Made by a program: the position numbers and the translations under genes. The notes under the pieces are model-generated. The model saw nothing but the letters and a program-made list of their open reading frames with translations. It was not told the DNA's origin and made no database searches. 64,000 nt of DNA from Candidatus Thiodiazotropha endolucinida (GTDB lineage: Bacteria > Pseudomonadota > Gammaproteobacteria > Chromatiales > Chromatiaceae). Positions 13,973 through 51,267 of the stretch are shown piece after piece (within the stretch, counting starts at the first letter, position 1; every line of letters starts with the position of its first letter). The stretch is from NCBI RefSeq assembly GCF_001715975.1, contig NZ_MARB01000013.1, positions 83,241 through 147,240 of the forward strand, in the 5' to 3' direction.

Positions 13973-14238
13973 ATATATGCAGCTTGATCGTCCATACCAA
14001 ACCGACCCAGGGAGCCGAGGTGTGCCAACGCCTGCTAGGGTTCCAGGGAGTCGAGGTCCATGGAGGAACCGAGGAAGACAAATTGATTGTCACTATTGAG
14101 GACGAGGGTGAGTCGATGTCACCCGTGTCAGACACTATGAATGCCCTTCGTGACGTGAAAGGCGTCGTGAACACTGTTTTGATTTATCACTATGGCGGTG
14201 AAGAGTCGATGGAGGAAATGAACCGTGAAATTAACTAG
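13969..14238 (+). CDS. napD: NapD chaperone for the NapA Tat signal
   Basis: This 89-residue cytoplasmic chaperone would bind the twin-arginine signal of NapA and hold export until the cofactor is inserted. The N-terminus [18 protein letters not shown] and the later [19 protein letters not shown] block fit the ferredoxin-like NapD fold and its usual length. It overlaps napF by 4 bases and napA by 14 bases, so the three genes are tightly coupled. Confidence 0.93.
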
Positions 14239-16795
14239 AAGAGATTTTATTAAGAGTAATGCAGTGGCCGCAGCAGCCTCCGTGGCTGGTGTTACCCTGC
14301 CGGTCAGCCAATCCGTTGCTGCCGAAGCAGACGACGGCATTCGTTGGGACAAGGCTGCCTGCCGTTACTGCGGTACCGGCTGCAGCGTACTGATGGGTGT
14401 AAAAGACGGTAAAGTCGTGGCCAGTCAGGGCGATCCTGACGCACCGGTCAACAAGGGCCTCAACTGTATCAAGGGCTACTTTCTGCCGAAGATCCTCTAT
14501 GGTGAGGATCGGCTGACCAAACCGTTGTTGCGCAAAACCAACGGCAAATATGACAAGAACGGCAAATTCGAAGCCGTTTCTTGGGAAGAGGCCTTCAAGA
14601 CGATGGCCGAGAAATGGGTCGCAGCCCGTAAGGCCAAGGGCCCGAAAGGTGTCGGCATGTTTGGCTCCGGTCAGTGGACTGTGTGGGAAGGCTATGCCGC
14701 ACAGAAACTGTTGAAGGCAGGTTTCCGTTCCAACAGCCTGGAACCCAACGCCCGTCACTGCATGGCCTCTGCGGTAGGCGCCTTCATGCGCGCTTTCGGT
14801 ATCGATGAGCCGATGGGTTGTTACGACGATCTGGAGCACGCCGATGTCTTCGTGCTGTGGGGCGCCAACATGGCGGAGATGCACCCGATTCTCTGGTCCC
14901 GTCTCACCGACACCCGTCTGACCAAGCCCGGCTGCGAAGTCCATGTGCTCTCCACCTTCGAGCACCGCTGCTACGAGCTTGCAGATAACGATATGATCTT
15001 CGAGCCCCAGACCGATCTGGCGATCCTCAACTACATCGCCAACTACATCATCCAGAACAAGGCCTATAACAAGGAGTTCATCGACAAGCACGTCAACTTC
15101 ACCAAGACCCCGACCGATATCGGTTACGGTCTGCGTGCCAATGATCCCCGCGAGAAGGCCGCCAAGAACCGGAACAAGGGCAAGCTCACCAAGATCAGTT
15201 TCGAAGAGTACGCCAAGTCGGTTGAACCCTACACCCTGGAGTACACCTCCAAGCTCTCCAAGGTACCGAAGGACAAACTGCTGAGACTGGCCAAAGCCTA
15301 CGCCGATCCCAAGAAGAAGGTCTCCTCTTACTGGACCATGGGCTTCAACCAGCATACCCGCGGTGTCTGGGTCAACGGCCTCTGTTATAACGTCCACCTG
15401 TTGATGGGCAAGATCTCAGAACCCGGCAACAGCCCCTTCTCCCTTACTGGTCAGCCCTCCGCTTGCGGTACCGCACGCGAGGTCGGCACCTTCACCCACC
15501 GTCTGCCCGCAGACCTGGTCACCAAGAAGGATGCCCACTGTAAGTTCGCCGAGAAGACCTGGAAACTGCCGGCCGGCACGATTCCAAGAGCCAACGGCAA
15601 GACCGACGGCGCCGATCAGACCGATATCAGCGGCAAACCCATGGGCAAGACCCTGATCCATGCGGTCGCCATGCATCGCGCCCTCAACGACGGCAAGATG
15701 AATACCTTCTGGGTCATGTGTAACAACAACATGCAGGCTGCGGCCAACATGAATGACGAGAGTTATCCCGGTTGGCGCAACCCGGACAACTTCATCACCG
15801 TCTCCGACCCCTATCCGACGGTATCGGCCCAGGCCGCAGACCTGATCCTGCCGACCGCCATGTGGATCGAGAAGGAGGGTGCCTACGGTAACGCAGAACG
15901 TCGTACCCAGTTCTGGCGTCAGCAGGTTGCCGCACCGGGTGAGGCCAAATCTGACGTCTGGCAGGTCATGGAGTTCGCCAAATACGTCAAGGTCGAGGAT
16001 GTCTGGCCTGCAGACCTTATCGCGAAAATGCCTGAGTATGCGGGCAAGACCCTGTTTGACGTGCTCTACGCCAACGGGCAGGTCGACAAGTTCCCGGTGG
16101 AACAGGTCACCGACAGCCGTGGCAACAAGTACGACAACGACGAGTCGGCTGACTTCGGTTTCTATGTACAGAAGGGTCTGTTCGAAGAGTATCGCCTCTT
16201 CAACTCCGTTGAGGGTATCCCGAAAAAGGGTCACGAGATGGCCGACTTCGATACCTACCACAAGGTCCGCGGTATGCGCTGGCCTGTGATCGACGGCAAG
16301 GAGACCCTGTGGCGTTTCCGCGAAGGCTACGATCCCCATGTGGCCAAGGGTGATGGGGTCAAGTTCTACGGCAAGCCTGACGGCAAGGCCAACATCATCA
16401 CCGCGCCCTATGAGCCGGCCGCCGAGCCACCGGATAAAGAGTACGATCTGTGGCTCTGCACCGGCCGTGTATTGGAGCACTGGCACTCCGGCTCGATGAC
16501 CCGTCGCGTACCCGAGCTCTATCGCGCGGTGCCCGACGCGGTGGTCTACATGCATCCGAAAGACGCCAAGAAACGTCGGCTGCGTAACGGTGCGCTGGCC
16601 AAGCTCACCACCCGTCGTGGCGAGATCGTGTGCAAGGTCGACACCAAGGGTCGCAACAAGTGTCCCGAGGGCCTGATCTTCGTGCCCTGGTTCGATGCGG
16701 GACGCCTGGTCAACAAACTGACCCTCGACCAGACCGATCCGCTCTCGAAAGAGACGGACTACAAGAAATGCGGTGTCAAGGTGACACGCGCATAG
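14225..16795 (+). CDS. napA: Periplasmic nitrate reductase catalytic subunit NapA
   Basis: This 856-residue molybdoenzyme reduces nitrate to nitrite in the periplasm. The Tat signal TRRDFIKSN is followed by a hydrophobic stretch ending near residue 34. Cys46, Cys49, Cys53 and Cys81 bind the [4Fe-4S] cluster. Cys179 in [13 protein letters not shown] is the expected Mo ligand. The start is a GTG inside the end of napD. The protein is somewhat longer than E. coli NapA (828 residues). Electrons should arrive from NapC through NapB, with NapGH as a second quinol route. The cofactor is Mo-bis-MGD; moaA lies downstream. Confidence 0.97.
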
Positions 16796-16805
16796 CTTGT
16801 ACGGT

Positions 16806-16829
16806 GCCGGTCCGGGCAACCGGACCGGC
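16806..16829 (+). other. GNRA-capped hairpin between napA and napG
   Basis: Perfect 10-bp arms GCCGGTCCGG and CCGGACCGGC enclose a GCAA tetraloop. No T-run follows, so it is unlikely to be a simple terminator. A position just after napA suggests stabilisation of the upstream message or partial attenuation, setting the napA to napGHBC ratio (inference). Confidence 0.75.
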
Positions 16830-16874
16830 GGTTAACTGAAAACGGAAGCACTGAATCGCAGTATCACATCAGTC

Positions 16875-17732
16875 ATGTCAGAAACAGAGAGAAAAAACGA
16901 GATCAACCGCCGGCAGTTTCTGGGCAATATGCTCAAAACCGCCTGTGGTGTAGGATTGGTCGGACTGGGACTGGGCGCCTATTCGAAACGGGCCTCTACC
17001 ATGCCGGCCAACTACATTCGCCCCCCCGGCGCCTTGCCGGAGGAGGATTTTCTCGGCGCCTGCATTCGCTGCGGCCTCTGTGTGCGCGATTGTCCCTACG
17101 ACATTCTGTTTCTGGGTGAGGTCGGTGACGAAGTTGCCACGGGAACGCCCTATTTCATCGCCCGTACCGGGCCGTGTGAGATGTGCGAGGACATTCCCTG
17201 TGTGGTGGCCTGTCCCACCAACGCCCTCGACCATGACCTGAAAGATATCGAAGATTCGCGTATGGGCCTGGCTGTGCTCATCGACCAGGAGAACTGCATT
17301 GCGTTCCACGGACTGCGTTGCGAAGTCTGTTTCAATGTCTGTCCGATCCGCAATCGCGCCATCACCCTGGACATGCAGCACAACACCCGTTCCGGTAAGC
17401 ATGCCCTGTTCATTCCCGTGGTCCACTCCGAGGCCTGTACCGGCTGTGGACTCTGTGAACGTGCATGCATTCTGGAAGAGGCGGCCATCAAGGTCTTTCC
17501 CATGCACCTTGCGAAGGGTGAATTGGGCAAGCACTACCGTTTGGGCTGGGAGGAGAAAGAGAAAGCGGGCAAGTCACTGGTCACGCCCGACACCGAGCAT
17601 CGTTACAACCTGCCCGAAGGGGTGCGTTACGACCTGCAGGGTGAAGGCTTGATCATCGAAGGCGAGGCCGAGGAGACACCCTTCTCCTCCAATCCTCTGG
17701 ATACACTCAATAGCGGTTTCATGGACAAGTAG
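16875..17732 (+). CDS. napG: Periplasmic ferredoxin NapG
   Basis: This 285-residue Tat-exported ferredoxin (NRRQFLGNML motif near residues 11-20) has four cysteine clusters: CIRCGLCVRDCP, CEMCEDIPCVVACP, CEVCFNVCP and CTGCGLCERACI. With NapH it forms a quinol-oxidising route to NapAB. Only one base separates its stop from the napH start. The length is slightly above E. coli NapG (231) because of a longer C-terminal tail. Confidence 0.94.
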   Translation: MSETERKNEINRRQFLGNMLKTACGVGLVGLGLGAYSKRASTMPANYIRPPGALPEEDFLGACIRCGLCVRDCPYDILFLGEVGDEVATGTPYFIARTGPCEMCEDIPCVVACPTNALDHDLKDIEDSRMGLAVLIDQENCIAFHGLRCEVCFNVCPIRNRAITLDMQHNTRSGKHALFIPVVHSEACTGCGLCERACILEEAAIKVFPMHLAKGELGKHYRLGWEEKEKAGKSLVTPDTEHRYNLPEGVRYDLQGEGLIIEGEAEETPFSSNPLDTLNSGFMDK

Positions 17733-17733
17733 C

Positions 17734-18642
17734 ATGTTAGACATGAAGACATTGGGTGACGACGCCATTGCCGAAAAAGGCTGGTTCAAGGCCCACAAGT
17801 TCCTGATCCTGAGGCGACTCAGTCAACTCGGGATTCTGGCGCTGTTCTTGACCGGTCCCTGGCTCGGCATCTGGATCGTGAAGGGCAACCTGGCCTCAAA
17901 CCTGACCCTGGACGTGCTGCCGCTGACCGACCCCTATGTGTTGCTGCAAGCCAGTCTGTCGGGAGTGGTTCCGGAGACTGCCGCCATTATCGGCGTGGTC
18001 ATCGTGCTGGTCTTCTACTTCCTGGTGGGAGGCCGGGTCTACTGCTCCTGGGTCTGCCCGGTCAACATGGTCACCGACCTGGCCGCCTGGTTGCGGCGCA
18101 AGCTGGGGATCAGAACCACCTCGCAGCTCTCGCGTTCCACCCGCTACTGGATGTTGGCGCTGACGTTGATCCTGCCGCTGGTGGTGACCGGGGGCATCAT
18201 CTGGGAACTGGTCAATCCGGTCTCCATGATGTTCCGCGGCATTGTCTTCGGCATGGGTGCGGCCTGGATCATGGTCCTGGGGATCTTTCTGTTCGATCTG
18301 ATTGTGGCTAAAGACGGCTGGTGCGGACACATCTGTCCAGTGGGCGCTTTCTACAACCTGGTCGGCAGTAAGAGCCTGTTGCGGGTCAACGCCCTTGAGC
18401 GTCACGCCTGCAACGACTGTATGGAGTGCTACGTGGTCTGTCCGGAACCGCAGGTGATCAAGCCGGCGCTGAAGGGAGAGAAGAAGGGGCTGAGCCCGGT
18501 GATTCTCTCTTCCGACTGCACCAATTGTGGGCACTGTATCGATATCTGTGCACCAGAGGTTTTCAGTTATGGCGGACGTCACGCCAAAAAAATCGACGAG
18601 TACAAGCGAGAGGTTGAAGTCAATCGGGGTGTCCGGACCTGA
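17734..18642 (+). CDS. napH: Membrane ferredoxin NapH
   Basis: This 302-residue inner-membrane protein has four main hydrophobic segments (about residues 28-48, 72-94, 138-160, 170-192). Cytoplasmic CSWVCP and CGHICP motifs are characteristic of NapH, and two [4Fe-4S] motifs, CNDCMECYVVCP and CTNCGHCIDICA, occupy the C-terminus. It is expected to take electrons from quinol and pass them to NapG. It follows napG by one base and precedes napB. Confidence 0.94.
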   Translation: MLDMKTLGDDAIAEKGWFKAHKFLILRRLSQLGILALFLTGPWLGIWIVKGNLASNLTLDVLPLTDPYVLLQASLSGVVPETAAIIGVVIVLVFYFLVGGRVYCSWVCPVNMVTDLAAWLRRKLGIRTTSQLSRSTRYWMLALTLILPLVVTGGIIWELVNPVSMMFRGIVFGMGAAWIMVLGIFLFDLIVAKDGWCGHICPVGAFYNLVGSKSLLRVNALERHACNDCMECYVVCPEPQVIKPALKGEKKGLSPVILSSDCTNCGHCIDICAPEVFSYGGRHAKKIDEYKREVEVNRGVRT

Positions 18643-18691
18643 CCGGCACATCAAACCAATTCTGTTTATGAGAGTGATGATGGAGAAAGGT

Positions 18692-19117
18692 ATGAAAAAA
18701 ATCGCACTACTGACACTTGCGGCAATCGCAACCATGTTCCTGTCGACTGCCCTGTTGGCCGACGTTCAATCGCTGCGTGGCGATGCACTCGACACCATGG
18801 CGAAAAAACCGGCCGACCTGAAGCTCGTCAATGTGAAAGGCGGCATCGAAAGAAGCTTCAAGCTGCAACCGCCCATGGTGCCGCACGAAGTGGACAAATA
18901 CGAAGTCAACCTGAAGAACAACGGTTGCATGAAATGTCACAGCGAAGCCACCTACGAGAAAGAGAAGGCGCCCAAGGTGGGTGATAGCCACTATGAGGAT
19001 CGTGAGGGCAAGGTTCTGAAGACTATCTCCAGCCGCCGATACTTCTGTAACCAGTGCCATGCACCCCAGGTGGGCGCGGATCCCCTGGTGCAAAACAACT
19101 TTCAAGGTGCCAAATAG
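18692..19117 (+). CDS. napB: Dihaem cytochrome c NapB
   Basis: This 141-residue periplasmic electron-transfer subunit of the NapAB complex has a Sec signal at residues 1-23 (ending ALLADV). Haem sites are C79-M-K-C-H83 and C119-N-Q-C-H123, the two expected for NapB. The start at 18692 is chosen because GGAGAAAGG precedes it and it begins the signal peptide; a longer frame extends back into napH but would hide the signal. A strong hairpin follows the stop. Confidence 0.94.
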   Translation: MKKIALLTLAAIATMFLSTALLADVQSLRGDALDTMAKKPADLKLVNVKGGIERSFKLQPPMVPHEVDKYEVNLKNNGCMKCHSEATYEKEKAPKVGDSHYEDREGKVLKTISSRRYFCNQCHAPQVGADPLVQNNFQGAK

Positions 19118-19118
19118 T

Positions 19119-19169
19119 ATTCAGCCGAATCGGGTCGCCTCGAATGGAGGCGGCCACGATTCACTGAAT
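19119..19169 (+). other. Large hairpin between napB and napC
   Basis: Nested arms ATTCAG/CTGAAT, GAATCG/CGATTC and CGCCTC/GAGGCG form a long imperfect stem immediately after the napB stop. No T-run follows. Like the hairpin after napA, it probably tunes mRNA stability or read-through into napC. Confidence 0.65.
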
Positions 19170-19202
19170 AGCAGTAGACAAATCAACTAGTGAAAAGTAA
19201 GT

Positions 19203-19775
19203 ATGAACGAAAGTAAGAAAAAAGGCGGGCTGTTCCTGATAGCCGTCGGTATCGTTGCCGGTATCATACTCTGGGGCGGATTCAACACCGCAATGGAGAT
19301 GACAAATACCGAAACCTTCTGTATTTCATGCCATGAAATGGAACAGACAGTCTACCAAGAGCTGCAGGAGACGATCCACTTCACCAACAGGACCGGTGTT
19401 CGCGCCACCTGCCCTGACTGCCATGTCCCCAAGGAGTGGATCCACAAAGTCGTGCGCAAGATTCAGGCGACCAATGAGCTCTACCACAAGATGCTGGGAA
19501 CCATCGACACGCCGGAGAAGTACGAAGCCAAGCGTCTCGAGCTGGCACAGAATGTCTGGCGCTCGATGAAGAAGACCGACTCCCGGGAGTGCCGTAACTG
19601 CCACAAGTTCGTCTCAATGGATCTGGACAGACAGGCACCACGCAGTTCCGAGCAGCACGATCCTCACTACTGGGACGCTGTGGATGGAAAGGAACCGCAA
19701 AAAACCTGTATCGATTGCCACAAAGGGATTGCCCATTCACTCCCCGAAGGGTTCGATCCCAACGCCGAGTTTTAA
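19203..19775 (+). CDS. napC: Tetrahaem quinol dehydrogenase NapC
   Basis: This 190-residue NapC/NirT-family cytochrome is anchored by one N-terminal helix (about residues 9-28). Four haem motifs are visible: CISCHEM, CPDCHVP, CRNCHKF and CIDCHKG. It would oxidise membrane quinol and pass electrons to NapB. It is the last nap gene, 85 bases after napB. No napE, napK or napL was found, giving the order napFDAGHBC. Confidence 0.95.
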   Translation: MNESKKKGGLFLIAVGIVAGIILWGGFNTAMEMTNTETFCISCHEMEQTVYQELQETIHFTNRTGVRATCPDCHVPKEWIHKVVRKIQATNELYHKMLGTIDTPEKYEAKRLELAQNVWRSMKKTDSRECRNCHKFVSMDLDRQAPRSSEQHDPHYWDAVDGKEPQKTCIDCHKGIAHSLPEGFDPNAEF

Positions 19776-40560: not shown

Positions 40561-41949
40561 CTACTTATCTATTTCGTAGCGTTTCATCTTCTCCCACAGG
40601 TTTTTGCGCGAGATACCCAAGGAATCCGCTGTCTGATTGATTTTGCCTTTATTTTCCGCTAGCGCTCTGGTTATTGACTTCCGTTCAGCCTCTTCGATAG
40701 TCTCTTTCAGTGTAGTTGTATCGTGAGTGTGGGCATTGCTGTCCGTGATCGAAAGATCGCTTTGGCTTATCCAAGGCCCATCGCAAAGGGCGACTGCTCT
40801 TTCAATGACATTCTTCAGTTCACGAACATTCCCAGGGAATGACATGGATTGAAGAGAGAGTTCAGCCTCCTTCGACAGACCTTTGATGCCCCCCTTTTTA
40901 CATCGCCCCAGCTGGCTGACGAATTGTCTGGCGAGATAGACTATGTCCTCCCTACGTTGCCGCAGTGGTGGAATGTCGATATTGATTACATTGAGGCGCC
41001 AGTAAAGATCCGACCTGAATTCATTTTTTTCAATAACGACATCGAGATTGGCCTGAGTTGCGGCAATCACCCTCACATCAAGTGGAATTGATACAGATCC
41101 GCCGACACGTTCAAACTCCCTCTCCTGCAGCACTCTCAGTAATTTTACCTGTATATCGGACGATACTTCCGCGATCTCATCAAGAAAGATGGTGCCGCCT
41201 TGAGCCTGCTCAAAACGTCCTTTTCGTTGTTGTGTCGCTCCGGTAAAAGCCCCCTTTTCATGGCCAAAGAGCTCACTTTCGATCAGGGTGGCAGGTAGCG
41301 CGGCACAGTTCACACTGACCATGGGACCCTGTGACCTGAGACTGTTGTTGTGTATCAGGTTTGCAACGACCTCTTTGCCAACCCCGGACTCTCCGGTAAG
41401 CAATACTGAACTGTCACTCTCTCTGAGACGCGCCACAAGTCTCTCAATCTTTCGCATGGCGTTGCTTTTTCCCAAACAACCACTACCTGGTTTGAAGTAA
41501 TCATTATCAGTGTCAGGGTTGTTGGCCGTTAACTGAATGTCGGAAATACATGAGAGCTGGTGCACCACCTTCTTGATGAACTCATTAATGTCAAAAGGTT
41601 TTGTTAGATAATCCAAAGCGCCGGCTTTAACCGTAGCGACTGCGTCCGATATATCGCCATAAGCCGTCATGAGGATGACAGGTATGCCTGGATAATTGTT
41701 TGAGATATCTGTAAAGAGTTCGATCCCTGTACCATCCGGTAGGCGGATATCGGTTACGACAAGATCTATATCTCCTTTTTCCAGCTCTTTTCTTGCACTC
41801 GCAGTATCACTCACCGCACGCACAGGTATTGATTCTATGCGTAACCTGTCAACAAGCGATATTTGCATGATCTCATCATCTTCAACCAGCAACAGGCACA
41901 AGTCTTTGTAGCTATCCGCCTCCATCGTCTGATCCATACTATTCTGCAT
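40561..41949 (-). CDS. Sigma-54-dependent response regulator (NtrC family)
   Basis: This 462-residue regulator has a receiver (about residues 17-130) with Asp67 in LVVTDIRLPDG, and an AAA+ domain (about 165-400) with Walker A GESGVGKE and the sigma-54 contact loop GAFTGA in FGHEKGAFTGAT. A Fis-type HTH (about 415-460, INQTADSLGISRKNLWEKMK) completes it. It overlaps the kinase stop by one base. The divergent operon has a near-consensus -24/-12 promoter (44771-44786) and palindromic upstream sites, its probable targets. Confidence 0.93.
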   Translation of the reverse strand: MQNSMDQTMEADSYKDLCLLLVEDDEIMQISLVDRLRIESIPVRAVSDTASARKELEKGDIDLVVTDIRLPDGTGIELFTDISNNYPGIPVILMTAYGDISDAVATVKAGALDYLTKPFDINEFIKKVVHQLSCISDIQLTANNPDTDNDYFKPGSGCLGKSNAMRKIERLVARLRESDSSVLLTGESGVGKEVVANLIHNNSLRSQGPMVSVNCAALPATLIESELFGHEKGAFTGATQQRKGRFEQAQGGTIFLDEIAEVSSDIQVKLLRVLQEREFERVGGSVSIPLDVRVIAATQANLDVVIEKNEFRSDLYWRLNVINIDIPPLRQRREDIVYLARQFVSQLGRCKKGGIKGLSKEAELSLQSMSFPGNVRELKNVIERAVALCDGPWISQSDLSITDSNAHTHDTTTLKETIEEAERKSITRALAENKGKINQTADSLGISRKNLWEKMKRYEIDK

Positions 41950-43424
41950 CAGGCTGCCTGCCTGTTGATTACCGGCAGTTCGATGAGGAAAGTCGTACCT
42001 TTTCCCAGCTCGCTCTCAACCTCAATGATACCTTGCATATTCTGAACCAGACGGTAGACAACCCACAGTCCCAATCCTGTGCCGTTGGGCTTTGTTGTAA
42101 AGAAAGGATCGAATAGTTGGTTTCTTATATTTGAGGCAACTCCGGGGCCATTATCACTGACTTTGATGACGAGACGCCTTCCCTCTTGATACATGTTGAA
42201 ATCAATGGTTCCGTTTTCGGGAATGATTTCAACAGCATTTTTCAGTAAATTACAGATTATCTGTTCGGTCTTTCCTGGAATACAGGTATCTCTATCTGCT
42301 GTATTGTTCCAGTATATTTTGATATCTCTTTCACCTATTTCCGCCAGTATCAAATCATGAAGCTTGTCGACCTGTTGAATGTTTATCATTTCATCACTAT
42401 CCTCGTTCTTGAGTCCAACGAGAAGGTTATGAACAATATCTTTAATCCGATGCAGTCCCTGATCAATAACCGGTAGGTAACGATCGATCAACTCCTTGTC
42501 GTTTGGATGCTGACGCAGCGTATCTATACAGTTCAAAAGCCCTGCAAGCGGGTTATTCACCTCATGTGCCACACCTGCGGTAATTCTTCCCAAGGCGACC
42601 AGTTTCTCGCTCATTGCGATCTCCTCCTCGAGCATCTTTTTTTCCGCCAGTTCAGACATGATCTGATTGAAAGTCACACTAAGCCTTCCTATTTCATCTC
42701 CCTCTTTCACCGGTATTGGTGAAAAGTCGGTCATCTCTCCACGCCCTACCGCCTCAAGCCCGTGAGTGATGGCGGTCAAAGGCCCGACAACCCGCCTGGA
42801 TACAATGGTACCCAGCAGGCTTCCGATGAAGACGAAGAGTAGTATCGACAGAAGAACGATAACGGCTGTGGATTTTGCCTTTTCGAACAGGCTGACGACT
42901 GAGAGACGAACCCGAACCACACCAAGGTATTTTTGATCTGAAAACAGCGGTACGACACCCTCCTGAAATCCATCTTGGGAAAAGCCGCCGCTGCTCAACA
43001 CGGTCGGTGTTCTCGCGCCCATCGCCTGGCTGGATATAGCTTTCTCAGCTTCATTATCCGGCGAAAAGACAAGACCTATCGGATGTTTCGCGGGATGAAG
43101 ATGGGCCTGAACCAGGCCTTCAGCATCCAATATCATCGCATCTATGATTTCGTGTTCGCTTCTGGCTCCAGGACCCTTGGATGCCATATTCTTGAGACTG
43201 AGGTAAAGCGACCAGTAGTCCTTTCGCAGCATCGCCTTTGGCGCAGTGATTGAAATGGATTCAGATAGCAGCAGCGCTTTTTCACCCAAATCATTTTGAA
43301 ATCGTTTCCAGTCCTGGACAACCATGAGTACTCCGATCAAAAACCCGACGCATGTTACAACGGCCGTTATGGTGAGGGATAACTTTATCGCCAATGGCCA
43401 GGATTTCGGATTAATCTTGGGCAT
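41949..43424 (-). CDS. Sensor histidine kinase partner of the NtrC-type regulator
   Basis: This 491-residue membrane kinase has an N-terminal helix (about 13-34) and a periplasmic region (about 35-170). A second helix (about 172-195), HAMP linker, DHp helix with the phosphorylated histidine in ITAGVAHEVNNPLAGLLN, and an ATPase domain with ISDNGPG-like KVSDNGPGVA and GTGLGLWVV blocks follow. Its gene lies 15 bases after that of the periplasmic PhnD-like protein, which may deliver the ligand signal, analogous to the fused PhnD-like sensor of TtrS. That link is inference. Confidence 0.9.
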   Translation of the reverse strand: MPKINPKSWPLAIKLSLTITAVVTCVGFLIGVLMVVQDWKRFQNDLGEKALLLSESISITAPKAMLRKDYWSLYLSLKNMASKGPGARSEHEIIDAMILDAEGLVQAHLHPAKHPIGLVFSPDNEAEKAISSQAMGARTPTVLSSGGFSQDGFQEGVVPLFSDQKYLGVVRVRLSVVSLFEKAKSTAVIVLLSILLFVFIGSLLGTIVSRRVVGPLTAITHGLEAVGRGEMTDFSPIPVKEGDEIGRLSVTFNQIMSELAEKKMLEEEIAMSEKLVALGRITAGVAHEVNNPLAGLLNCIDTLRQHPNDKELIDRYLPVIDQGLHRIKDIVHNLLVGLKNEDSDEMINIQQVDKLHDLILAEIGERDIKIYWNNTADRDTCIPGKTEQIICNLLKNAVEIIPENGTIDFNMYQEGRRLVIKVSDNGPGVASNIRNQLFDPFFTTKPNGTGLGLWVVYRLVQNMQGIIEVESELGKGTTFLIELPVINRQAA

Positions 43425-43439
43425 TTGTATATGGAATAA

Positions 43440-44309
43440 TTAATCAGTTTGTACCACGGAGTACCTGGGGTCGGCGTTTTGAACTGTATTTTCCAAAGCG
43501 CGGATTTCGTTGAACAACGAATCAGAATAATCACCGAAGCCATCCAGTTTGAGGCGGTCGAGCAGTTCCTGTCCGGTTAAATCCTGATGCATATTTTCAA
43601 GTGTATGTTTCATTTGTATTACTGTGTCGGTATCTATACCTAAACGGTAAACAATAGGTGGAAAACCAAAGCTTGGCGATTTCTTTATTATTCGGGTTTT
43701 TTCAGTAATGTCCGGCTTGAAGACGGCAATATACTCCCATATATACGAGTCTACGGCTCCACCATCTGCAACCTGCTCGGAAACGGCTTGCACCGTCTCA
43801 GCGTGATTGAAAGTGAAGAATGTCTGGCGGAAAAAAGTCTCAGGCTTCTCACCTTTTTTTGCGATCAAGGCCAGTGGATAGAGGAAACCTGAATTCGAAT
43901 CAGGATCAGAGAAGGCGAAACTTTTCCCTCTCAGGTCGCTGAAGCGTTTATAGGGACTGCTATGATAGACAATTATATAAGAGTGATAACGTGGTGCTCC
44001 CCGGTAAATAGGCACTGTCAGGAGCTGAAGTGATTCCGTTTCTCTTGCCTGGATGTAGGGATAACCGCAGATCCAAGCGAAATCGATAACACCCGTGTCC
44101 AACAGATCCATTACTTCCCGATAAGACTTTCTCTGCACAAACTCGACCTTGCGACCTGTTTTTTCCTCCAGGTATTGACTCCATTGGTCCAGGAATCTTA
44201 GATTTTCAGTGGGCACAACAGCCGTTAAGCCGAAACGGATAGGTGTCTCCGTATTGGCCGCATAAATTGGAGTAATCCAGATAAGTAATATTAAAAAGGT
44301 CAATCGCAC
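43440..44309 (-). CDS. Periplasmic PhnD-like binding protein of a sensory operon
   Basis: This 289-residue exported protein has a signal peptide at residues 1-18 (IWITPIYAANTE) and a PhnD/transferrin-like fold: PIRFGLTAVVPTENLRFLDQ, VIDFAWICGYPYIQARETES, LRGKSFAFSDPDSNSGFLYP. No ABC permease or ATPase is adjacent; instead a sensor kinase and sigma-54 regulator follow on the same strand, so it probably detects a respiratory substrate rather than importing one. Oxyanions such as tetrathionate, phosphite or arsenate are conceivable ligands. Confidence 0.82.
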   Translation of the reverse strand: MRLTFLILLIWITPIYAANTETPIRFGLTAVVPTENLRFLDQWSQYLEEKTGRKVEFVQRKSYREVMDLLDTGVIDFAWICGYPYIQARETESLQLLTVPIYRGAPRYHSYIIVYHSSPYKRFSDLRGKSFAFSDPDSNSGFLYPLALIAKKGEKPETFFRQTFFTFNHAETVQAVSEQVADGGAVDSYIWEYIAVFKPDITEKTRIIKKSPSFGFPPIVYRLGIDTDTVIQMKHTLENMHQDLTGQELLDRLKLDGFGDYSDSLFNEIRALENTVQNADPRYSVVQTD

Positions 44310-44597
44310 TTGGGATCCTCACTAAAACAACTTCTCAGGGATACTGCTAAGTTATGTCACGGTAGCTGCATTACGAAATGTCATACGCTCCCTGCAGCGA
44401 ACAAAGACCTTCAGTGGCCACACTTTCCCGTACTTTTATAGTTGCTATTCTGCAAGGATAGCAGAATCCATTACTTAATCAGGAAGTTGTTGTTTTTTAG
44501 TTGCATACGCCTACTGTCCGCATCCAGACCACCTGTTTGTACCCGCTTTTTCATGGGCAGTGAAGAAGCCTTCTCCGGAGTGCTTCTCCACATCTCG

Positions 44598-44621
44598 GTA
44601 TGTTACCTATCGGTAACATAC
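44598..44621. promoter_or_regulatory. Palindromic upstream activating site
   Basis: Perfect 10-base arms GTATGTTACC and GGTAACATAC flank TATC. The centre is about 160 bases upstream of the sigma-54 promoter, a usual distance for NtrC-family enhancer sites. Related half sites GGTTAC (44672), GTAACC (44693) and GGTAAC (44703) lie closer to the promoter. Confidence 0.7.
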
Positions 44622-44670
44622 TGTCAGGCGGCGCTTTGCTAACAGCATGTAATTAAAGAACAAACCACAA

Positions 44671-44708
44671 TGGTTACACAATTCAGCGAAAAGTAACCAA
44701 CAGGTAAC
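44671..44708. promoter_or_regulatory. Second cluster of GGTAAC half sites
   Basis: TGGTTAC and GTAACCA form 7-base inverted arms with a 15-base spacer, followed five bases later by GGTAAC. They repeat the half site of the palindrome at 44598-44621 and lie 63-100 bases upstream of the -24 element, consistent with a weaker second activator site. Confidence 0.5.
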
Positions 44709-44770
44709 AAAATCCAGATTTATATTTTTTCTACTTTATATTTTTCCACATTTTCAAACAGATAATAACC

Positions 44771-44786
44771 TGGAACGACTCTTGCT
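44771..44786 (+). promoter_or_regulatory. Sigma-54 (-24/-12) promoter of the multihaem/molybdoenzyme operon
   Basis: TGGAACGACTCTTGCT matches TGGCACG-N4-TTGCW with one mismatch, and the GG and GC dinucleotides are exactly 10 bases apart. It lies 70 bases upstream of the cytochrome start codon, leaving a leader of about 60 bases. Confidence 0.85.
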
Positions 44787-44855
44787 GATGTTCCGAAACA
44801 TATAAACACAAAGCCGAGTGAACACAGTCTGCCCGACTGGGGGAAAACAAAGGCA

Positions 44856-46445
44856 ATGAATAGTGGCGCTGGAATTGAATTAAGAGTTACCTGGCGACTG
44901 ATGGTACTGATCTTCATGGGAACAGTTCTTTTTCTCTTAACCGCCTGGGGCGGCTTTGAGTATTACACGTCGCAGTCGTCTTTTTGTGGGGGCAGCTGCC
45001 ACACCATGACAGAGCAGTATGAAGCCTGGAAGTCAAACTATCACTACAAGAGCAATAATCCGGAAGGCATGCAAGCGGAGTGTGTCGATTGCCACTTTTT
45101 ACCAGGCGAGAAACATTCCATGAAGGCCAAGTACGAAGGATTACGCCACCTTGCAGCATACCTTTATGACCGGGATGCTCCACTGCCCATACGCCCTGTG
45201 ATCAAGGATGGCGCTTGTTTACAGTCCGGCTGTCACGACCGTGAGAAACTGGCGCCGGTGGAGATACAGTTTACTGATCGGGTCCGTTTCAAACACGAGG
45301 TTCACTTTAGTGATAAGGCTCTCGATGGCCACCAGATCACCTGCGATACATGCCATTTCAAGACAACGGAGAAAAAGCACTTCGAGGTGCCTGAAGACAT
45401 CTGTTTCCTTTGTCACCTTAAACTGGACAAGCCCACACTTGACAAAGCGGAGATGGCCAATGGGGACATTAAGAAAATCACCTTTGTCAACAAGCCGGCC
45501 ATCGATTTCAATCAAGGGGTCTCCCGTTGCGATATCTGCCACACGATCCCGACAAAATCGCTTCAAAACCAGTTACAGGCAGGCGACCCCGCCAGTACCA
45601 AAAAACCGATCACTCATCAGACAATACAGGAATCAGGCGTTGCCTGTGAGAGTTGTCACTTCGAAATGGTGAGTGGGGAGGGAGAGATTAATACCGGAAA
45701 TGTCGTCTCGAATGGCTGTCTTACCTGCCATAACAGAAGTCAGACGTTACTGGCAACCGCAGGCGACCGCGAACTCATGCATGACAAACATGTGCCGAAC
45801 AAGGCTGACTGCTTCGATTGTCACAGCGTGATCGAACATAAGAACAGAACTGACCATCTTGATTTCGTACGCAATGATTGTCAGCTCTGTCACGTCGATC
45901 AGCACAAGTACCAAAAGCTGCTGCTTTCAGGCGCTCCTGTTAACGAGGATATCTCGGGTGACCCTCATCTGATGTACGAGGTCAACACAAACTGCATGGG
46001 CTGTCATCTCAAGAAGACACTGAGTAAAGGGCATGACGTGAGAACCGCCTCAGGCGATACCTGTGCTGCCTGCCATACCGAACAACACAGAAAAATGATC
46101 AGTGACTGGAACGAATTACTCACCAATGAGGTGGCGGACGTGGAAGAGGTTGAGAAGGAAGCCAGGGATCTCTTCGCCGAACTGAAGGATAGATTGGACA
46201 ATGAGAGATTGACCCAAGCAGAGCAAATGCTAGCCGAGGGAAATGATCTTCTCAATATTGTACGCGTTGGTAACGGCGTACATAACAAAAAGTACGCAGT
46301 AAACATTCTCGACGGTGCATTCGGCAATTTTGAAGACACCATAGAGCTATTGGAAGAGACGAGAAGTAGTGATGATCTTGCAAAAACCACACAATCAACT
46401 GTAGCGGAGGGTGAGGAGATGCGTAGGAGAATACGATATGAGTGA
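44856..46445 (+). CDS. Membrane-anchored cytochrome c with twelve haem-like motifs
   Basis: This 529-residue cytochrome has one N-terminal membrane helix (about residues 11-30) and a NapC/NirT-like start. Ten standard CxxCH motifs are visible (CVDCH, CDTCH, CFLCH, CDICH, CESCH, CLTCH, CFDCH, CQLCH, CMGCH, CAACH), plus one CX3CH (CGGSCH) and one CX4CH (CLQSGCH). A helical tail of about 115 residues without haem motifs follows. It probably oxidises quinol and feeds the iron-sulfur and molybdenum subunits encoded next. It is the first gene of the sigma-54-controlled operon and overlaps the next gene by 8 bases. Confidence 0.9.
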   Translation: MNSGAGIELRVTWRLMVLIFMGTVLFLLTAWGGFEYYTSQSSFCGGSCHTMTEQYEAWKSNYHYKSNNPEGMQAECVDCHFLPGEKHSMKAKYEGLRHLAAYLYDRDAPLPIRPVIKDGACLQSGCHDREKLAPVEIQFTDRVRFKHEVHFSDKALDGHQITCDTCHFKTTEKKHFEVPEDICFLCHLKLDKPTLDKAEMANGDIKKITFVNKPAIDFNQGVSRCDICHTIPTKSLQNQLQAGDPASTKKPITHQTIQESGVACESCHFEMVSGEGEINTGNVVSNGCLTCHNRSQTLLATAGDRELMHDKHVPNKADCFDCHSVIEHKNRTDHLDFVRNDCQLCHVDQHKYQKLLLSGAPVNEDISGDPHLMYEVNTNCMGCHLKKTLSKGHDVRTASGDTCAACHTEQHRKMISDWNELLTNEVADVEEVEKEARDLFAELKDRLDNERLTQAEQMLAEGNDLLNIVRVGNGVHNKKYAVNILDGAFGNFEDTIELLEETRSSDDLAKTTQSTVAEGEEMRRRIRYE

Positions 46446-47289
46446 CAACAAAACACCAGACGTCAACCGTCGCAAATTTCTGAGTGGTGTAGGCACAGCC
46501 GCGATAGGCGCTGCGGCATTGGCGACACCGAAGGTGAGTCTTGAAGCGGCTCAATCAAAAGCACCCCGTTGGGCGATGGTGATGGACCTCAGGCGCTGCA
46601 TAGGCTGCAGGGCCTGTACCGTGGCCTGCAAATCTGAAAACAATGTCTCTTTGGGCCGTTTCCGGGCAGTCGTCCAAGAGAAAACCATGGGTACATTTCC
46701 AAATACCAAGAAGGAATTCTTACCCCTGATGTGCAATCACTGCGAGGGCAATGAGAAAGATGGTGTTCCACCTTGTGTCAAAGCCTGTCCGGAATTTCCA
46801 GGCAAACGGGCCAAATTCAAGACGGCTGATGGCAAAACCATACGTTATCGCACGGGTGCGACCTATAAACGTCCTGATGGCTTGATCCTGATAGACAAGG
46901 AAAAATGTATCGGCTGCGGCAAATGTATTGATGCCTGCCCTTACGGTGTCCGTTCATTTGATCCCTTTGTCAAAGCGGGCGCTGATCCGACAAAGCAGGC
47001 TGCGGACAAATGCGATATGTGTGCTCATCGTGTCGATAACGGGGTCGAACCATCCTGTGTCAACACTTGCCAGGGACGTGCACGAATTTTCGGTGACCTC
47101 AACGCCCCGAACAGCGAAGTCTCCAAGCTTGTAAAAGAGCACAACCTGGCCAAGGCCGACAACGTTCTGCTTCCGGAAGAGGGAACCATTCCTCATGTGT
47201 TCTACATCGATCCCGACAACATGTTGAAAACCCTCTATACACAGCGAAAGAAGGGCAAACTGGACCACTTTGTGGACCAGATTCCATAG
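46438..47289 (+). CDS. Tat-exported four-cluster ferredoxin subunit (TtrB/PhsB-like)
   Basis: This 283-residue protein has a Tat signal (NRRKFLSGVG near residues 10-19) and four cysteine clusters: CIGCRACTVACK, CNHCEGNEKDGVPPCVKACP, CIGCGKCIDACP and CDMCAHRVDNGVEPSCVNTC. This is the iron-sulfur subunit type of periplasmic DMSO-reductase-family enzymes such as TtrB, PsrB and PhsB. It would shuttle electrons from the multihaem cytochrome to the molybdoenzyme. The ATG at 46438 is coupled to the cytochrome stop and starts MSDNKTPDVNRRKF. Confidence 0.92.
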   Translation: MSDNKTPDVNRRKFLSGVGTAAIGAAALATPKVSLEAAQSKAPRWAMVMDLRRCIGCRACTVACKSENNVSLGRFRAVVQEKTMGTFPNTKKEFLPLMCNHCEGNEKDGVPPCVKACPEFPGKRAKFKTADGKTIRYRTGATYKRPDGLILIDKEKCIGCGKCIDACPYGVRSFDPFVKAGADPTKQAADKCDMCAHRVDNGVEPSCVNTCQGRARIFGDLNAPNSEVSKLVKEHNLAKADNVLLPEEGTIPHVFYIDPDNMLKTLYTQRKKGKLDHFVDQIP

Positions 47290-47322
47290 ACCCTGAGAGC
47301 CTGTTTTAAGAGAGGAATTGAT

Positions 47323-49848
47323 ATGAAAAAGTTAAATCGTCGTGATTTCATGAAACTGACTGCCGGCAGCGGTTGCGCATTGGCAGCCGGATTGGGCTGC
47401 AGTCAGAGTGCATTTGCCGGATCGCTTAAACTGCAGGCGGGCGGCAAGGATTTTTCACCCACAACAGGTAAGGAGAGACAGGCAATTCCCACGGCCTGCT
47501 GGCAGTGTGTAACCCGAGACTCCATGATCGGTTATGTAGAAGATGGACGCCTGGTAAAGCTCGAAGGCCATCCCGATTCCATCCGCACACTCGGCAAACT
47601 CTGCGCCAAGGGACAGGCGGGCATCAACCAGGTCTACTTCCCCGACCGGATCCTGCACCCGATGAAACGCGCAGGCAAACGTGGTGAGCACAAATGGAAA
47701 CGTATTTCCTGGGATGAGGCCCTTGACCTGATCGTATCCAAGCTGAAACCCCTGCGCGATGCGGGTACCCCTGAACTGTTTATGTATCAGTACGGCAGAC
47801 ACAAGGCGTCCCAGGCTGCCACCATGTACGACTTCATGCAGGCCTACGGCACTGGCACCATCGGTAATCACACCTCTGTCTGTGAGGCGGCAAAATGGGT
47901 AGGACAGGAGAGTCTGTGGGGGGGCATGTATGACAACTGGGATTATGACAACACCGATTACGTGGTGATTTTCGGCAGCAATCAGTTTGAGACCCATACC
48001 AACCATATTCCGACCGCCCAGCGCCTGATCCGGGCCAAGGTTGATCGTGGCGTACCCCTATACGTATTCGACGTGCGCCTGACAAACACGGCGGCCAAGG
48101 CCGATCAGTGGGTACCGATCAAAGTGGGGCATGACGGACTGGTGATGCTGGCCATGTGCAATGTCATCATGAACGAGAAACTCTACAGGAAGGATCACTT
48201 CAAATTCATGCGTGTCAGCGAAGACTACAAAGCGACTGTCGATGAGAAGATTGCAGCGGTGAAGAAAAATGTCGCCAAGTATACCCCCGAGTTTGCGGAG
48301 AAACAGAGCGGCGTGCCTGCCGATACCATACGCAAGATCGCTCGCGGGTTCGCAAAAGCCAAATCAGCCTGCCTGGTCACCTACCGTGGAACCGTAATGC
48401 ACTATCACGGCGCGGATCAGGAGCGGGCGGCAATGCTGTTGTCAGCGATCACCAACAATCTCGATCGTCCGGGTGGACGTGTCATGGGTGTTGGAGCAGG
48501 TTGGAAACATCCCTCCTCCCCAAAGGCGAAGGTTCACAAAACGCTCCACGTCAAGGACGGATTTCCGGGTGAAGCGGCCTACCCGACTCATCACGTAAGC
48601 CACCAGGTGCTACCGATGATCAAGGATGGCCAGGCGGGTCGACCGAAGGTCTACTGGTGGAGTTGCTACAACCCGGGATTCATCAATGGCGACAACAAGG
48701 AACTGCAGTCGATTATGCGGGATGAGAGTATTATCCCCTTCCTGATTTCAACCACCATCGTCTATGACGAATCATCTCAGTATGCAGACTTGATCCTACC
48801 CGACGTCACCTACCTGGAGCGCTGGGACTGGGAGGACATGGTGTCGGCTAACCAGATCGCCGAATTCTATATCCGGCAGCCGTTGGTTAAACCCCTGGGA
48901 GAATCACGTTGCCAGGGCGATGTCTGGCCTGAGCTGGCCAAGCGCATGGGCTTTGAACTGGCTTACTCAAGCAAGGAAGACTTCGTACGTCAGTCCTGTG
49001 AGATGACACCCGGTGTACGGGAGGCCGGAGGCTTCGAGTATATGAAGAAGCACGGCGTATGGCACGATCCGGAGGCCAAACCCAACTACGGCTTCTATGA
49101 GACCAAGGTGGACGTATCCGGCGATGGCGTGATTCTCGATGAGAAGACCGGTGTCTACTGGAACTGGAAAAAGGCAGGTGTCGGCACTGAGGCCGAAGCC
49201 AAGGGTCAGGGGTATCTAGGTACGAAAGGGGCTAAAAAGGCCTATGTCGCGCAAAATATCGATGGCACGGCTTACCTGGCCTATCCACCCAATACCAAGT
49301 TCGTCAAGGCAGGTTATCTGGACTTCTATTCAGATAATTTCGCCGATAAGGGCTTTCCGGCATTCCCATCCTATACGCCGATTCCCGAACACCAGAAAAT
49401 GGCGGATGATGAGCTGAATCTCACCACCTACAAGGTGGCGGTACATACCCATTCAAGGACCGCGCACTGCAAGTGGCTGACCGAAATCAAGCACGATAAC
49501 CCCGGCTGGATCAATACCAAGACGGCTGAAGCGCGCGGTATTAAGAATGGTGACAAGATCAGGGTCTATAACAGCCTGGGCGAGATCACCACCACTGCCT
49601 ATGTCACCGAGGGCATCATTCCGGGTGTGATCGCCATATCCCATCACCTGGGTCGCAAGCACTCGGGGGTCTATGGATCGGGCAAGCGTTCTCCCACACC
49701 CGGAGGCGCCGCGGCTGATCCGGATGTGAAGAATATATGGTGGAAGAAGCATGGCACTCATCCCAATACCATCATCCCCAACTCATCAGATCCTATCAGC
49801 GGCACACAGAGGTGGATGGATACCGTCGTCAGGGTAGCCAAGGCATAG
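47323..49848 (+). CDS. Tat-exported molybdopterin oxidoreductase, PsrA/PhsA-like, of unknown substrate
   Basis: This 841-residue catalytic subunit has a Tat signal (NRRDFMKLTAG near residues 5-15). The Fe-S motif reads Cys59-x2-Cys62-x3-Asp66-x27-Cys94, an aspartate replacing the usual third cysteine. Cys187 in HTSVCEAAKW is the expected Mo ligand, as in polysulfide, thiosulfate and tetrathionate reductases. The molybdopterin dinucleotide domain is at the C-terminus. Sulfur oxyanion, arsenate or another oxyanion could be the substrate; sequence alone does not decide. It is encoded between its iron-sulfur partner and a TorD chaperone. Confidence 0.9.
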   Translation: MKKLNRRDFMKLTAGSGCALAAGLGCSQSAFAGSLKLQAGGKDFSPTTGKERQAIPTACWQCVTRDSMIGYVEDGRLVKLEGHPDSIRTLGKLCAKGQAGINQVYFPDRILHPMKRAGKRGEHKWKRISWDEALDLIVSKLKPLRDAGTPELFMYQYGRHKASQAATMYDFMQAYGTGTIGNHTSVCEAAKWVGQESLWGGMYDNWDYDNTDYVVIFGSNQFETHTNHIPTAQRLIRAKVDRGVPLYVFDVRLTNTAAKADQWVPIKVGHDGLVMLAMCNVIMNEKLYRKDHFKFMRVSEDYKATVDEKIAAVKKNVAKYTPEFAEKQSGVPADTIRKIARGFAKAKSACLVTYRGTVMHYHGADQERAAMLLSAITNNLDRPGGRVMGVGAGWKHPSSPKAKVHKTLHVKDGFPGEAAYPTHHVSHQVLPMIKDGQAGRPKVYWWSCYNPGFINGDNKELQSIMRDESIIPFLISTTIVYDESSQYADLILPDVTYLERWDWEDMVSANQIAEFYIRQPLVKPLGESRCQGDVWPELAKRMGFELAYSSKEDFVRQSCEMTPGVREAGGFEYMKKHGVWHDPEAKPNYGFYETKVDVSGDGVILDEKTGVYWNWKKAGVGTEAEAKGQGYLGTKGAKKAYVAQNIDGTAYLAYPPNTKFVKAGYLDFYSDNFADKGFPAFPSYTPIPEHQKMADDELNLTTYKVAVHTHSRTAHCKWLTEIKHDNPGWINTKTAEARGIKNGDKIRVYNSLGEITTTAYVTEGIIPGVIAISHHLGRKHSGVYGSGKRSPTPGGAAADPDVKNIWWKKHGTHPNTIIPNSSDPISGTQRWMDTVVRVAKA

Positions 49849-49877
49849 ATTGAGTCTACTGAAAGAGGAGAGCTGAC

Positions 49878-50531
49878 ATGGGAACCGACTGGAATAAAAT
49901 GGCCGATAACGCCAAAACAAGAAGTGACATGTATGGGTTATTGACCCTGGTCTTTCGACAGGAGCCCAGCGAAGCCTTCATCAACGAACTGAGGGGGCCC
50001 CGCTTGTCGGGGGCCTTCTCGGACATGGAGCTGGATATGGGTGGCTCTTTTTACAGCGAACCCGTATCAGCCATAGCCGATCAACTTGCGCTTGAATTTT
50101 CGCGCCTGTTCATAGGTCCTGGACGGCATATTTCCGCCCATGAATCGATTTTCACTGAAGTGGATGGTGACTCAGGTGGTTTATGGGGCGCCAGAACAGT
50201 TGAAGTGAAGAAGTTCATCGAGACAACCGGACTTGATTACGCTTCCCAGTTCACTGGGTTGCCTGATCATATCAGTGTTGAACTTGAGTTCATGCAGAAG
50301 CTGGCCGATTGGGAAGCCGACAAGTGGATAGAGATGGATCGCATCAGTGCCGAGTACTGCCTGTCAATTCAGCGCATGTTCTTGCAACAGCATATTCTGG
50401 GTTGGATACCCAAGTTCTGTGATGCGGTGGTAGCGCAGGCGGATATTCCTTTTTACCGGGAACTGGCTGAGCTGACAAAGAATTTCCTTAAGCTCGAAGA
50501 GAGGAGCCTGATAATCGATACAGCTGCTTAG
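49878..50531 (+). CDS. TorD/DmsD-family molybdoenzyme chaperone
   Basis: This 217-residue all-helical cytosolic protein has the family blocks RSDMYGLLTLVFRQEPSEAF, LALEFSRLFIGPGRHISAHE and DHISVELEFMQKLADWEADK. Such chaperones bind the Tat signal of a specific molybdoenzyme and aid cofactor insertion; the partner here should be the adjacent PsrA/PhsA-like protein. It ends the four-gene operon and is followed by a terminator. A GAGGAG site precedes its ATG. Confidence 0.9.
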   Translation: MGTDWNKMADNAKTRSDMYGLLTLVFRQEPSEAFINELRGPRLSGAFSDMELDMGGSFYSEPVSAIADQLALEFSRLFIGPGRHISAHESIFTEVDGDSGGLWGARTVEVKKFIETTGLDYASQFTGLPDHISVELEFMQKLADWEADKWIEMDRISAEYCLSIQRMFLQQHILGWIPKFCDAVVAQADIPFYRELAELTKNFLKLEERSLIIDTAA

Positions 50532-50566: not shown

Positions 50567-50611
50567 GACCCGAAACGCCTCTTCAGCTAGGGCGTTTCGG
50601 GGTCTTTTTTT
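50567..50611 (+). terminator. Rho-independent terminator after the TorD-like gene
   Basis: Arms GACCCGAAACGCC and GGCGTTTCGGGGTC pair over 13 bases with one bulged G; the loop is 11 bases and TTTTTTT follows. It overlaps the end of the convergent phosphatase-like gene, so it may serve both strands. Confidence 0.9.
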
Positions 50612-51267
50612 GACCCATATCGATTACGAAGAGCTATCTCTTGATCAGGCAGCATACCGAGTTCTCTGCCTTCATTTACGGCGAAGCCGACAGGTGCGCC
50701 AAGATTCATCCGGTAGGCCGCCCACATAGTCCCAAGCAGTTCTGATCTTGGGGCATAGACCAGCAGCATTCCATGGCTGGCATCTATCACGTGTTGAGTG
50801 AAATACTCAACCTGCTCCCGGCTCGGCAGGTTGCCGTCAACCGGTATGCTTATATAGCGCATACCAAGCGCTTCGGTCTCCATTCGATGAAGACCAGCAC
50901 TCTTTTCCGATGTACCAACATCGATGACCGTTTTAAACCCGAACGCGCTCAGCTCCGCAATACGATTGAGCGGGCGTCCCATGGTCGCCTGCAGATAAGG
51001 AATGGCACGACCCGGGTCAGGTATTGCAATGCCATAACCCATCCGTCCCGGAAGCTTTGATGAGTGATGGTTGAGTATGTGGGGTAACACCCTTCCATCC
51101 GGTGTCGTTATGACTTCGTTATCGTCCCTATTGACTTCACCGTCACCCCACCAACCACATGCACTGACATGTCCCGGAGTCATTAGCATGATGTATATCA
51201 GAAACAAGATGAACGAATCTTTCGTGCTGTATGCTTTCACTATGCTATATATGGCGTTGAATCCCAA
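50587..51267 (-). CDS. Tyrosine-phosphatase-like lipoprotein with lost catalytic cysteine
   Basis: This 226-residue exported protein has an N-terminal hydrophobic segment ending in a lipobox-like VSAC at residue 37, suggesting a lipoprotein. The C-terminal domain resembles the DSP/beta-lactamase-hydrolase-like phosphatase fold (AELSAFGFKTVIDVGTSEKS, MRYISIPVDGNLPSREQVEY). The active-site loop expected as HCxxGxxR reads VYAPRSELLGTM, lacking cysteine and histidine, so phosphatase activity is unlikely. It is convergent with the TorD-like gene and shares its terminator. Confidence 0.65.
   Translation of the reverse strand: MGFNAIYSIVKAYSTKDSFILFLIYIMLMTPGHVSACGWWGDGEVNRDDNEVITTPDGRVLPHILNHHSSKLPGRMGYGIAIPDPGRAIPYLQATMGRPLNRIAELSAFGFKTVIDVGTSEKSAGLHRMETEALGMRYISIPVDGNLPSREQVEYFTQHVIDASHGMLLVYAPRSELLGTMWAAYRMNLGAPVGFAVNEGRELGMLPDQEIALRNRYGSKKDPETP

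Follow-up and report, generated by a model that had tools for sequence, protein, structure and literature searches.

The stretch analysed here, referred to as the window, comprises 64,000 nucleotides of the 4.49 Mb genome of Candidatus Thiodiazotropha endolucinida (contig NZ_MARB01000013.1) and holds, between positions 40,561 and 50,531, two divergent operons that combine a sensory module with a putative molybdoenzyme respiratory system. On the reverse strand lie contiguous genes for a periplasmic arsenic-oxyanion sensor of the AioX/ArxX/ArrX family (X; 43440..44309), assigned by matches to structure entries, pocket residues and its clade in trees, a HAMP sensor histidine kinase resembling AioS/ArxS (S; 41949..43424; Pfam HAMP, HisKA and HATPase_c; 26%, 141 bits to NT-26 AioS), and a sigma-54-dependent response regulator of the AtoC/NtrC type resembling AioR/ArxR (R; 40561..41949; Pfam Response_reg, Sigma54_activat and HTH_8; 41%, 321 bits to NT-26 AioR). 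Next to them, the forward strand encodes a membrane-anchored cytochrome with a NapC/NrfH-type N-terminus (44856..46445; Pfam Cytochrom_NNT and Cytochrom_c3_2) and 12 haem motifs (ten CX2CH, one CX3CH and one CX4CH), a four-cluster ferredoxin-type iron-sulfur (FeS) subunit (46438..47289; Pfam Fer4 families; top NCBIfam profile TtrB, 190.7 of 416 bits), a periplasmic molybdopterin catalytic (Mo) subunit of 841 residues (47323..49848), characterised by profiles, trees, motifs, a twin-arginine stretch and fold comparison, and a TorD/NarJ-type maturation chaperone (49878..50531; Pfam Nitrate_red_del, NCBIfam TorD under its cut-off). Twin-arginine stretches are found at the N-termini of both the FeS and the Mo subunit. 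An earlier note on this DNA had described these seven open reading frames with the twelve-haem-motif cytochrome among them; all seven lie at the coordinates and strands it gave, each identity is backed by Pfam, and the motif count agrees.

Compared with structure entries, the sensor matches AioX (6esk) with an E value of 6.5e-60 and ArrX (6x6b) with 8.5e-43, while PtxB/PhnD reach about 1e-14. The ligand pocket of AioX is described as Y88, C106, Y131, S161, S163, H192 and D210 (PMC5908839), and in the alignment all seven residues are kept in the window sensor. Across the 27 of 44 family sensors that were aligned, the Y, C, Y, S and H are present in 27/27, with S or T at position 163 and D or E at 210. 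The pocket cysteine is retained in 16/16 aio, arx and KH32C sensors of the alignment and in 0/10 controls, which were nine PhnD-family paralogues from the same genome and one TtrS, the latter with 0/7 pocket residues; fusion proteins were trimmed to their first residues, and paralogues L116-L118 align poorly. The window encodes another PhnD-type protein (L112; 31441-32196, +), which is without the arsenite-binding cysteine.

A careful tree of 46 rows unites the window-type sensors, AioX and ArxX in a single 37-row clade (100/100), with ArrX and the Desulfobacterota sensors outside it. In a quick tree, which omits six PhnD paralogues of the same genome, TtrS-like rows stand apart and ArrX joins the Desulfobacterota sensors at 90; the careful tree, which also omits TtrS and two fusion paralogues and has one PhnD outgroup, does not settle the placement of ArrX. 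The signalling loop of the window sensor reads LTAVV, with V and P at the positions of AioX F57 and L58. Judged by eye, Alpha- and Gammaproteobacterial loops are AioX-like and those of Desulfobacterota (e.g. MVSPKET) resemble the MISPLET of ArrX. Matches, pocket and tree thus place the sensor in the AioX/ArxX arsenic family and give no support to the comparison with tetrathionate reductase loci drawn in the earlier note.

A plasmid listing for the sensor contains 40 rows, 26 at 36-46% identity and the other 14 at no more than 29.2%. The sample inspected covers 18 of the 26 loci (H47, H51, H53, H55, H60, H63, H64 and H65 lie outside it). Twelve are annotated with aio genes, although L126 has the small subunit alone within the stretch; two unannotated loci (L135, L136) match aioA and aioB by tblastn. 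In the Cereibacter locus there are ars genes and an enzyme of which two aligned pieces show 57-64% identity to ArxA; the Sulfuricella locus has an arx-type cluster and the KH32C locus arsA and acr3, and L134 matches arsC and arsH, not aioA. By gene content, all 18 are arsenic loci. Separate genes for X, S and an AtoC/NtrC-type R, together with RpoN promoters, are already on record for aio and arx loci (PMC5908839); this layout, which had been taken as distinctive, is therefore not a novelty of the locus. In the isothermal titration calorimetry reported there, AioX and ArxX bound arsenite only, ArrX bound arsenate, and none of the three bound antimonite, selenate, sulphate, tetrathionate or thiosulphate (PMC5908839). 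Arsenic sensing by the window locus is strongly supported on sequence grounds, the sensor arm corresponding to a known arsenic module, a match that the earlier note does not draw. The earlier note had proposed a respiratory reductase for an oxyanion of open identity; given the family of the sensor and the published aio/arx layout, the substrate is not fully open and an arsenic oxyanion is favoured, while the label of reductase is not established, since grouping with arsenite binders points to oxidation.

The profiles and trees of the Mo subunit indicate a lineage separate from AioA, ArxA and ArrA. Curated profiles score it at 338 of 694 bits for PhsA, 170 of 1600 for ArrA, 113 of 1750 for TtrA and 26.7 of 359 for AioA, the TtrA cut-off being one that the TtrA reference rows L091-L093 (1327-1389) do not reach themselves. 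In both Mo trees it falls outside the ArrA, ArxA and TtrA clades. The careful tree has the family thinned to 20 loci plus the window, uses PhsA as outgroup and drops seven rows of the first (DmsA, two Fdh, NapA, L100, L101 and L106); the two conflict on the nearest clade, Arr/Arx or TtrA, with a single PhsA row and a single, partial PsrA row forming the PhsA/PsrA side and no SrrA, SrdA, SoeA, ActB, antimonate reductase or UnkA sequences included. Gly-Arg and His-x-x-x-Cys motifs are common to the Mo subunit and Arr, the former being missing from the TtrA and PhsA rows of the motif comparison, and among the families listed by VIA-align against the PDB the closest fold is ArrA. Neither tree puts the enzyme inside a characterised clade whose gene set has already been described. 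Of the earlier picture, this much is supported: a molybdoenzyme system of the sigma-54 type under the control of a sensor, whose membrane subunit is a multihaem cytochrome and which lies outside those characterised clades that could be compared. The locus is no artefact, and it is no ordinary known cluster either: it joins a known arsenic switch to a distinct enzyme lineage and a distinct electron wire. A related Mo subunit, that of L100/L148 (G046; 31%), has one in-frame TGA in its reading frame.

The gene set recurs in relatives. The best 80 matches from one scan of genome contigs gave 79 loci, which by record titles come from Alpha- and Gammaproteobacteria, deltaproteobacterial lineages and one Nitrospiraceae genome; among the matches listed, symbionts of the clam Ctena orbiculata come nearest, and Candidatus Thiodiazotropha is among those that come next. 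The culturable Jhaorihella thermophila (L087) has a 55% homologue of the Mo subunit. The cytochrome gene adjoins the Mo gene in 50/79 loci, 39 of which also carry the sensor, and 47 of the 50 cytochrome homologues have 12 haem motifs. Where Mo identity is at least 64% (n=36), the cytochrome is present in 36/36 and the sensor in 32/36; three of the four sensor-less contigs stop no more than 2.7 kb upstream of the Mo gene, which leaves L041 as a genuine exception. Among the 29 loci without a cytochrome near the Mo gene, many on short contigs, five carry the sensor. Homologues of an NrfD gene (identity tested in L081) occur in 16 of 79 loci, and a small cytochrome c gene occurs in six, directly downstream of TorD in 3/3 inspected. 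In an even draw from the class, 12 of 369 genomes match at E <=1e-150, the window's own counted. The co-occurrence of the gene set is not due to chance.

Several relatives depart from this arrangement. In L071, L077, L081 and L085 the cluster encodes a pair of paralogous Mo subunits, with one FeS gene for each, as well as TorD and XSR genes, and several of these clusters have genes for an ethylbenzene-dehydrogenase-type haem subunit and cytochrome c upstream. In several of the deltaproteobacterial loci L045, L046, L048, L054 and L055 a second multihaem cytochrome gene follows the operon, with a second FeS gene or an NrfD gene nearby; kinase and regulator form a single reading frame of about 740 residues in L045, L046, L048 and L054.

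The DNA between the operons holds conserved palindromes and a sigma-54-like site, none of which the earlier note mentions. A scan of this upstream region located the palindrome GTTAC-N6-GTAAC as an exact copy at 44602..44617 and, 91 bp downstream, as a second copy with one mismatch at 44693..44708, neither being assigned a strand. Behind them lies a sigma-54-like promoter site, TGGAACGACTCTTGCT (44771..44786, +), proposed from the pattern match, its position and similar sites in relatives. At least one exact palindrome stands between sensor and cytochrome genes in 28/28 divergent family loci, window included, many of which are near relatives and hence not independent; 20 of the 28 have two copies, 90-93 bp apart. 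Mononucleotide shuffles averaged 0.025 rows, and the runner-up palindromic arm with the same spacer occurs in 3/28. Taken by itself, the sigma-54-like pattern is no commoner in the window than expected by chance (2 matches vs 2.83 expected); similar sites, with at least 9 of 12 fixed positions, lie no more than 190 bp from the region end in 27/28 rows, a count for which no control was run. Allowing one mismatch, the palindrome also appears in 5/18 aio/arx/KH32C loci, namely KH32C, the Sulfuricella arx locus and the aio loci of Caballeronia, Paraburkholderia and Hydrogenophaga. The palindromes may well be bound by the regulator.

Known arsenic systems share parts of this architecture. The arx cluster on plasmid pSCD of Sulfuricella denitrificans (L089) likewise has XSR genes divergent from a Mo-FeS-TorD operon, and both it and the Cereibacter locus (L121) encode a related sensor with the pocket of the window protein, L089 also having a similar palindrome. 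The set arxXSR-arxB2ABCD encodes an anaerobic arsenite oxidase, whose ArxA is about 30% identical to the window enzyme over partial stretches and forms a separate clade. It includes an NrfD-type ArxC and no 12-haem cytochrome, the opposite of the window operon, and the order arxABC is described as conserved (PMC6549141). The window order is cytochrome-FeS-Mo-TorD with no NrfD gene in the operon. A plain arx cluster, the first reading considered, was rejected because of the separate ArxA clade and the missing NrfD subunit. The aerobic arsenite oxidase cluster aioXSR-aioBA (NT-26 plasmid, L133) shares sensor, kinase and sigma-54 regulator, but differs by the AioA profile score given above and by its Rieske subunit, for which the window operon has no gene. 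Arr has an NrfD-type ArrC where the window has its multihaem cytochrome.

Closer in enzyme sequence are the plasmid cluster of Azoarcus sp. KH32C (L088), adjoined by arsA and acr3, and L169, in which XSR genes diverge from an FeS-NrfD-Mo-TorD operon and palindrome and pocket are as in the window. Their Mo subunits are 39-40% identical to that of the window, with NrfD in place of the cytochrome, and their sisterhood with the window family is weakly supported in the careful Mo tree (88/49). The L169 enzyme is 79% identical to that of KH32C, and its locus combines the divergent layout, the palindrome and 7/7 pocket residues. A further point of comparison is the 'Unk' clade of molybdoenzymes (Duval et al. 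2008), which was placed close to Arr; its FeS gene precedes the Mo gene, most members carry a twin-arginine signal on the Mo subunit, and it had no known function (PMC2500031); a 2019 tree still names UnkA as unknown reductases (PMC6896113). The window operon also has its FeS gene ahead of the Mo gene and a twin-arginine signal on the Mo subunit, its cytochrome replacing subunit C; it fits by description alone and is hence not filed as a member. One Thioalkalivibrio is reported to oxidise arsenite without known oxidases, with a SoeA-like candidate that, unlike the window enzyme, lacks a twin-arginine signal (PMC6620896). We recognised no description of the gene set among the open-licence PMC papers listed by our searches, which did not extend to subscription papers or preprints.

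On balance, we consider it probable that this is an arsenic-responsive respiratory system whose molybdoenzyme interconverts arsenite and arsenate, here most likely in the direction of arsenite oxidation. The AioX-type periplasmic protein would bind arsenite and, through the kinase, activate the AioR-like regulator, which would bind the two GTTAC-N6-GTAAC sites and drive the sigma-54 promoter of the cytochrome-FeS-Mo-TorD operon. The exported enzyme would then interconvert arsenite and arsenate, the electrons travelling by way of FeS clusters and twelve haems either towards the NapC-type quinone site or away from it. Sequence itself establishes the gene set, the family and pocket of the sensor, the conservation of the palindromes and the separateness of the enzyme lineage; ligand, regulator binding, catalysis, direction and electron path are inferred, and for action on arsenic the basis is repeated linkage, not activity. 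The gene set suggests a route, so far undescribed, by which energy is gained from arsenic. Oxidation is placed ahead by the grouping of the sensor with AioX/ArxX, the AioX-like loop, a UbiA match above its cut-off with MenA below, and the small cytochrome c genes in six loci.

Several observations weigh against this reading. A sensor for arsenic is no proof that the enzyme acts on arsenic, and the loop of the window sensor has V-V-P where AioX has V56-F57-L58. Among curated profiles PhsA ranks first for the Mo subunit, above ArrA, and the careful tree places TtrA closer than Arr/Arx. In the available stretch, 24/29 cytochrome-free family loci, many on short contigs, have no sensor. The palindrome was not found in 13/18 aio/arx/KH32C loci at up to one mismatch, and as a genome-wide regulon marker it was rejected, with 3 sites in the genome vs 6 for a reversed control. 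Genes of the ars type are near 5/79 family loci only, which makes them weak support; no ACR3 was found in the window's genome, where other exporters were not searched for. NapC-type anchors usually serve reductases, although cM552, a NapC-family quinone reductase of nitrifiers, gives a precedent for reverse flow.

The anchor leads to the most serious competitor, a respiratory arsenate reductase in which quinol is oxidised at the NapC-type site and electrons run via haems and FeS clusters to arsenate, as in Shewanella, where CymA serves ArrAB. The ArrA-like fold would suit it, as would the Desulfobacterota sensors with their ArrX-like loop outside the AioX/ArxX clade. Against it, UbiA is matched above its cut-off and MenA below, and arsenate reduction by ubiquinol is less favourable. 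The window sensor moreover lies among the arsenite-only binders and outside ArrX (PMC5908839). We accordingly rank oxidation, as the probable direction, ahead of reduction, which we regard as rather unlikely. Less likely again is an arsenic-sensing regulator controlling an enzyme for something that occurs together with arsenic, be it thioarsenate, antimony, selenium or a sulfur oxyanion, or a sensor with a changed ligand: no member of the Mo family has been characterised, an arsenic sensor is missing near many of the cytochrome-free relatives and ars genes are rare, but the pocket is fully retained, 18/18 inspected sensor-family loci are arsenic loci, and the calorimetry reported for AioX, ArxX and ArrX registered none of the five other oxyanions offered (PMC5908839). 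A tetrathionate, thiosulfate or polysulfide reductase is very improbable. PhsA and TtrB are the top curated profiles of the Mo and FeS subunits, and TtrA branches next outside the family in the careful tree; yet the TtrA and PhsA scores stay below their cut-offs, TtrA rows lie outside the family in both trees, the TtrS control shares no pocket residue and the Gly-Arg motif is missing from TtrA and PhsA rows. Profile scores, sensor comparison and Mo trees led us to reject the tetrathionate reading.

A wider scheme, to which we give somewhat less than an even chance, would extend the arsenite-oxidising reading: Alpha- and Gammaproteobacterial members, clam symbionts included, would be arsenite oxidases and those of Desulfobacterota arsenate reductases, the direction having flipped as between Arx and Arr. 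The family would then form a fourth lineage beside Aio, Arx and Arr, with a 12-haem NapC-anchored cytochrome, and provide the first function of the 'Unk' type. Surveys of arsenic redox genes use aioA, arxA and arrA; if the enzyme works on arsenic, they miss a family that includes chemosynthetic clam symbionts. It would also supply a substrate for molybdoenzymes of a kind to which the 2008 paper, which also records arsenate respirers without arrA, assigned no function (PMC2500031). With an arsenic sensor attached, the question is directly testable by binding, induction and turnover.

Adjoining the operon, a gene for a phosphatase-like protein (50587..51267, -; PTP-NADK 27.9 bits), whose membership in the system is unproven, has homologues in 15/79 related loci, mostly next to the same operon. 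Elsewhere in the window, a nap-like operon for a periplasmic nitrate reductase, read from the list of open reading frames (13421-19775, +), could serve as a partner should arsenite oxidation be coupled to nitrate. An AioA-like gene elsewhere in the genome scores 382.8 bits against the cut-off of 359, but was not counted as an arsenite oxidase, having two di-haem peroxidase-type genes beside it, a layout we take to be that of iodate reductase; the cluster looks like idr. Such idr-like clusters lie at L159:7877-13524 (own genome, contig C1), from L026:19397 onward and from L028:17336 onward, and in two other Thiodiazotropha records genes 94-97% identical to the AioA-like gene are located about 7 kb downstream of the window-type operon.

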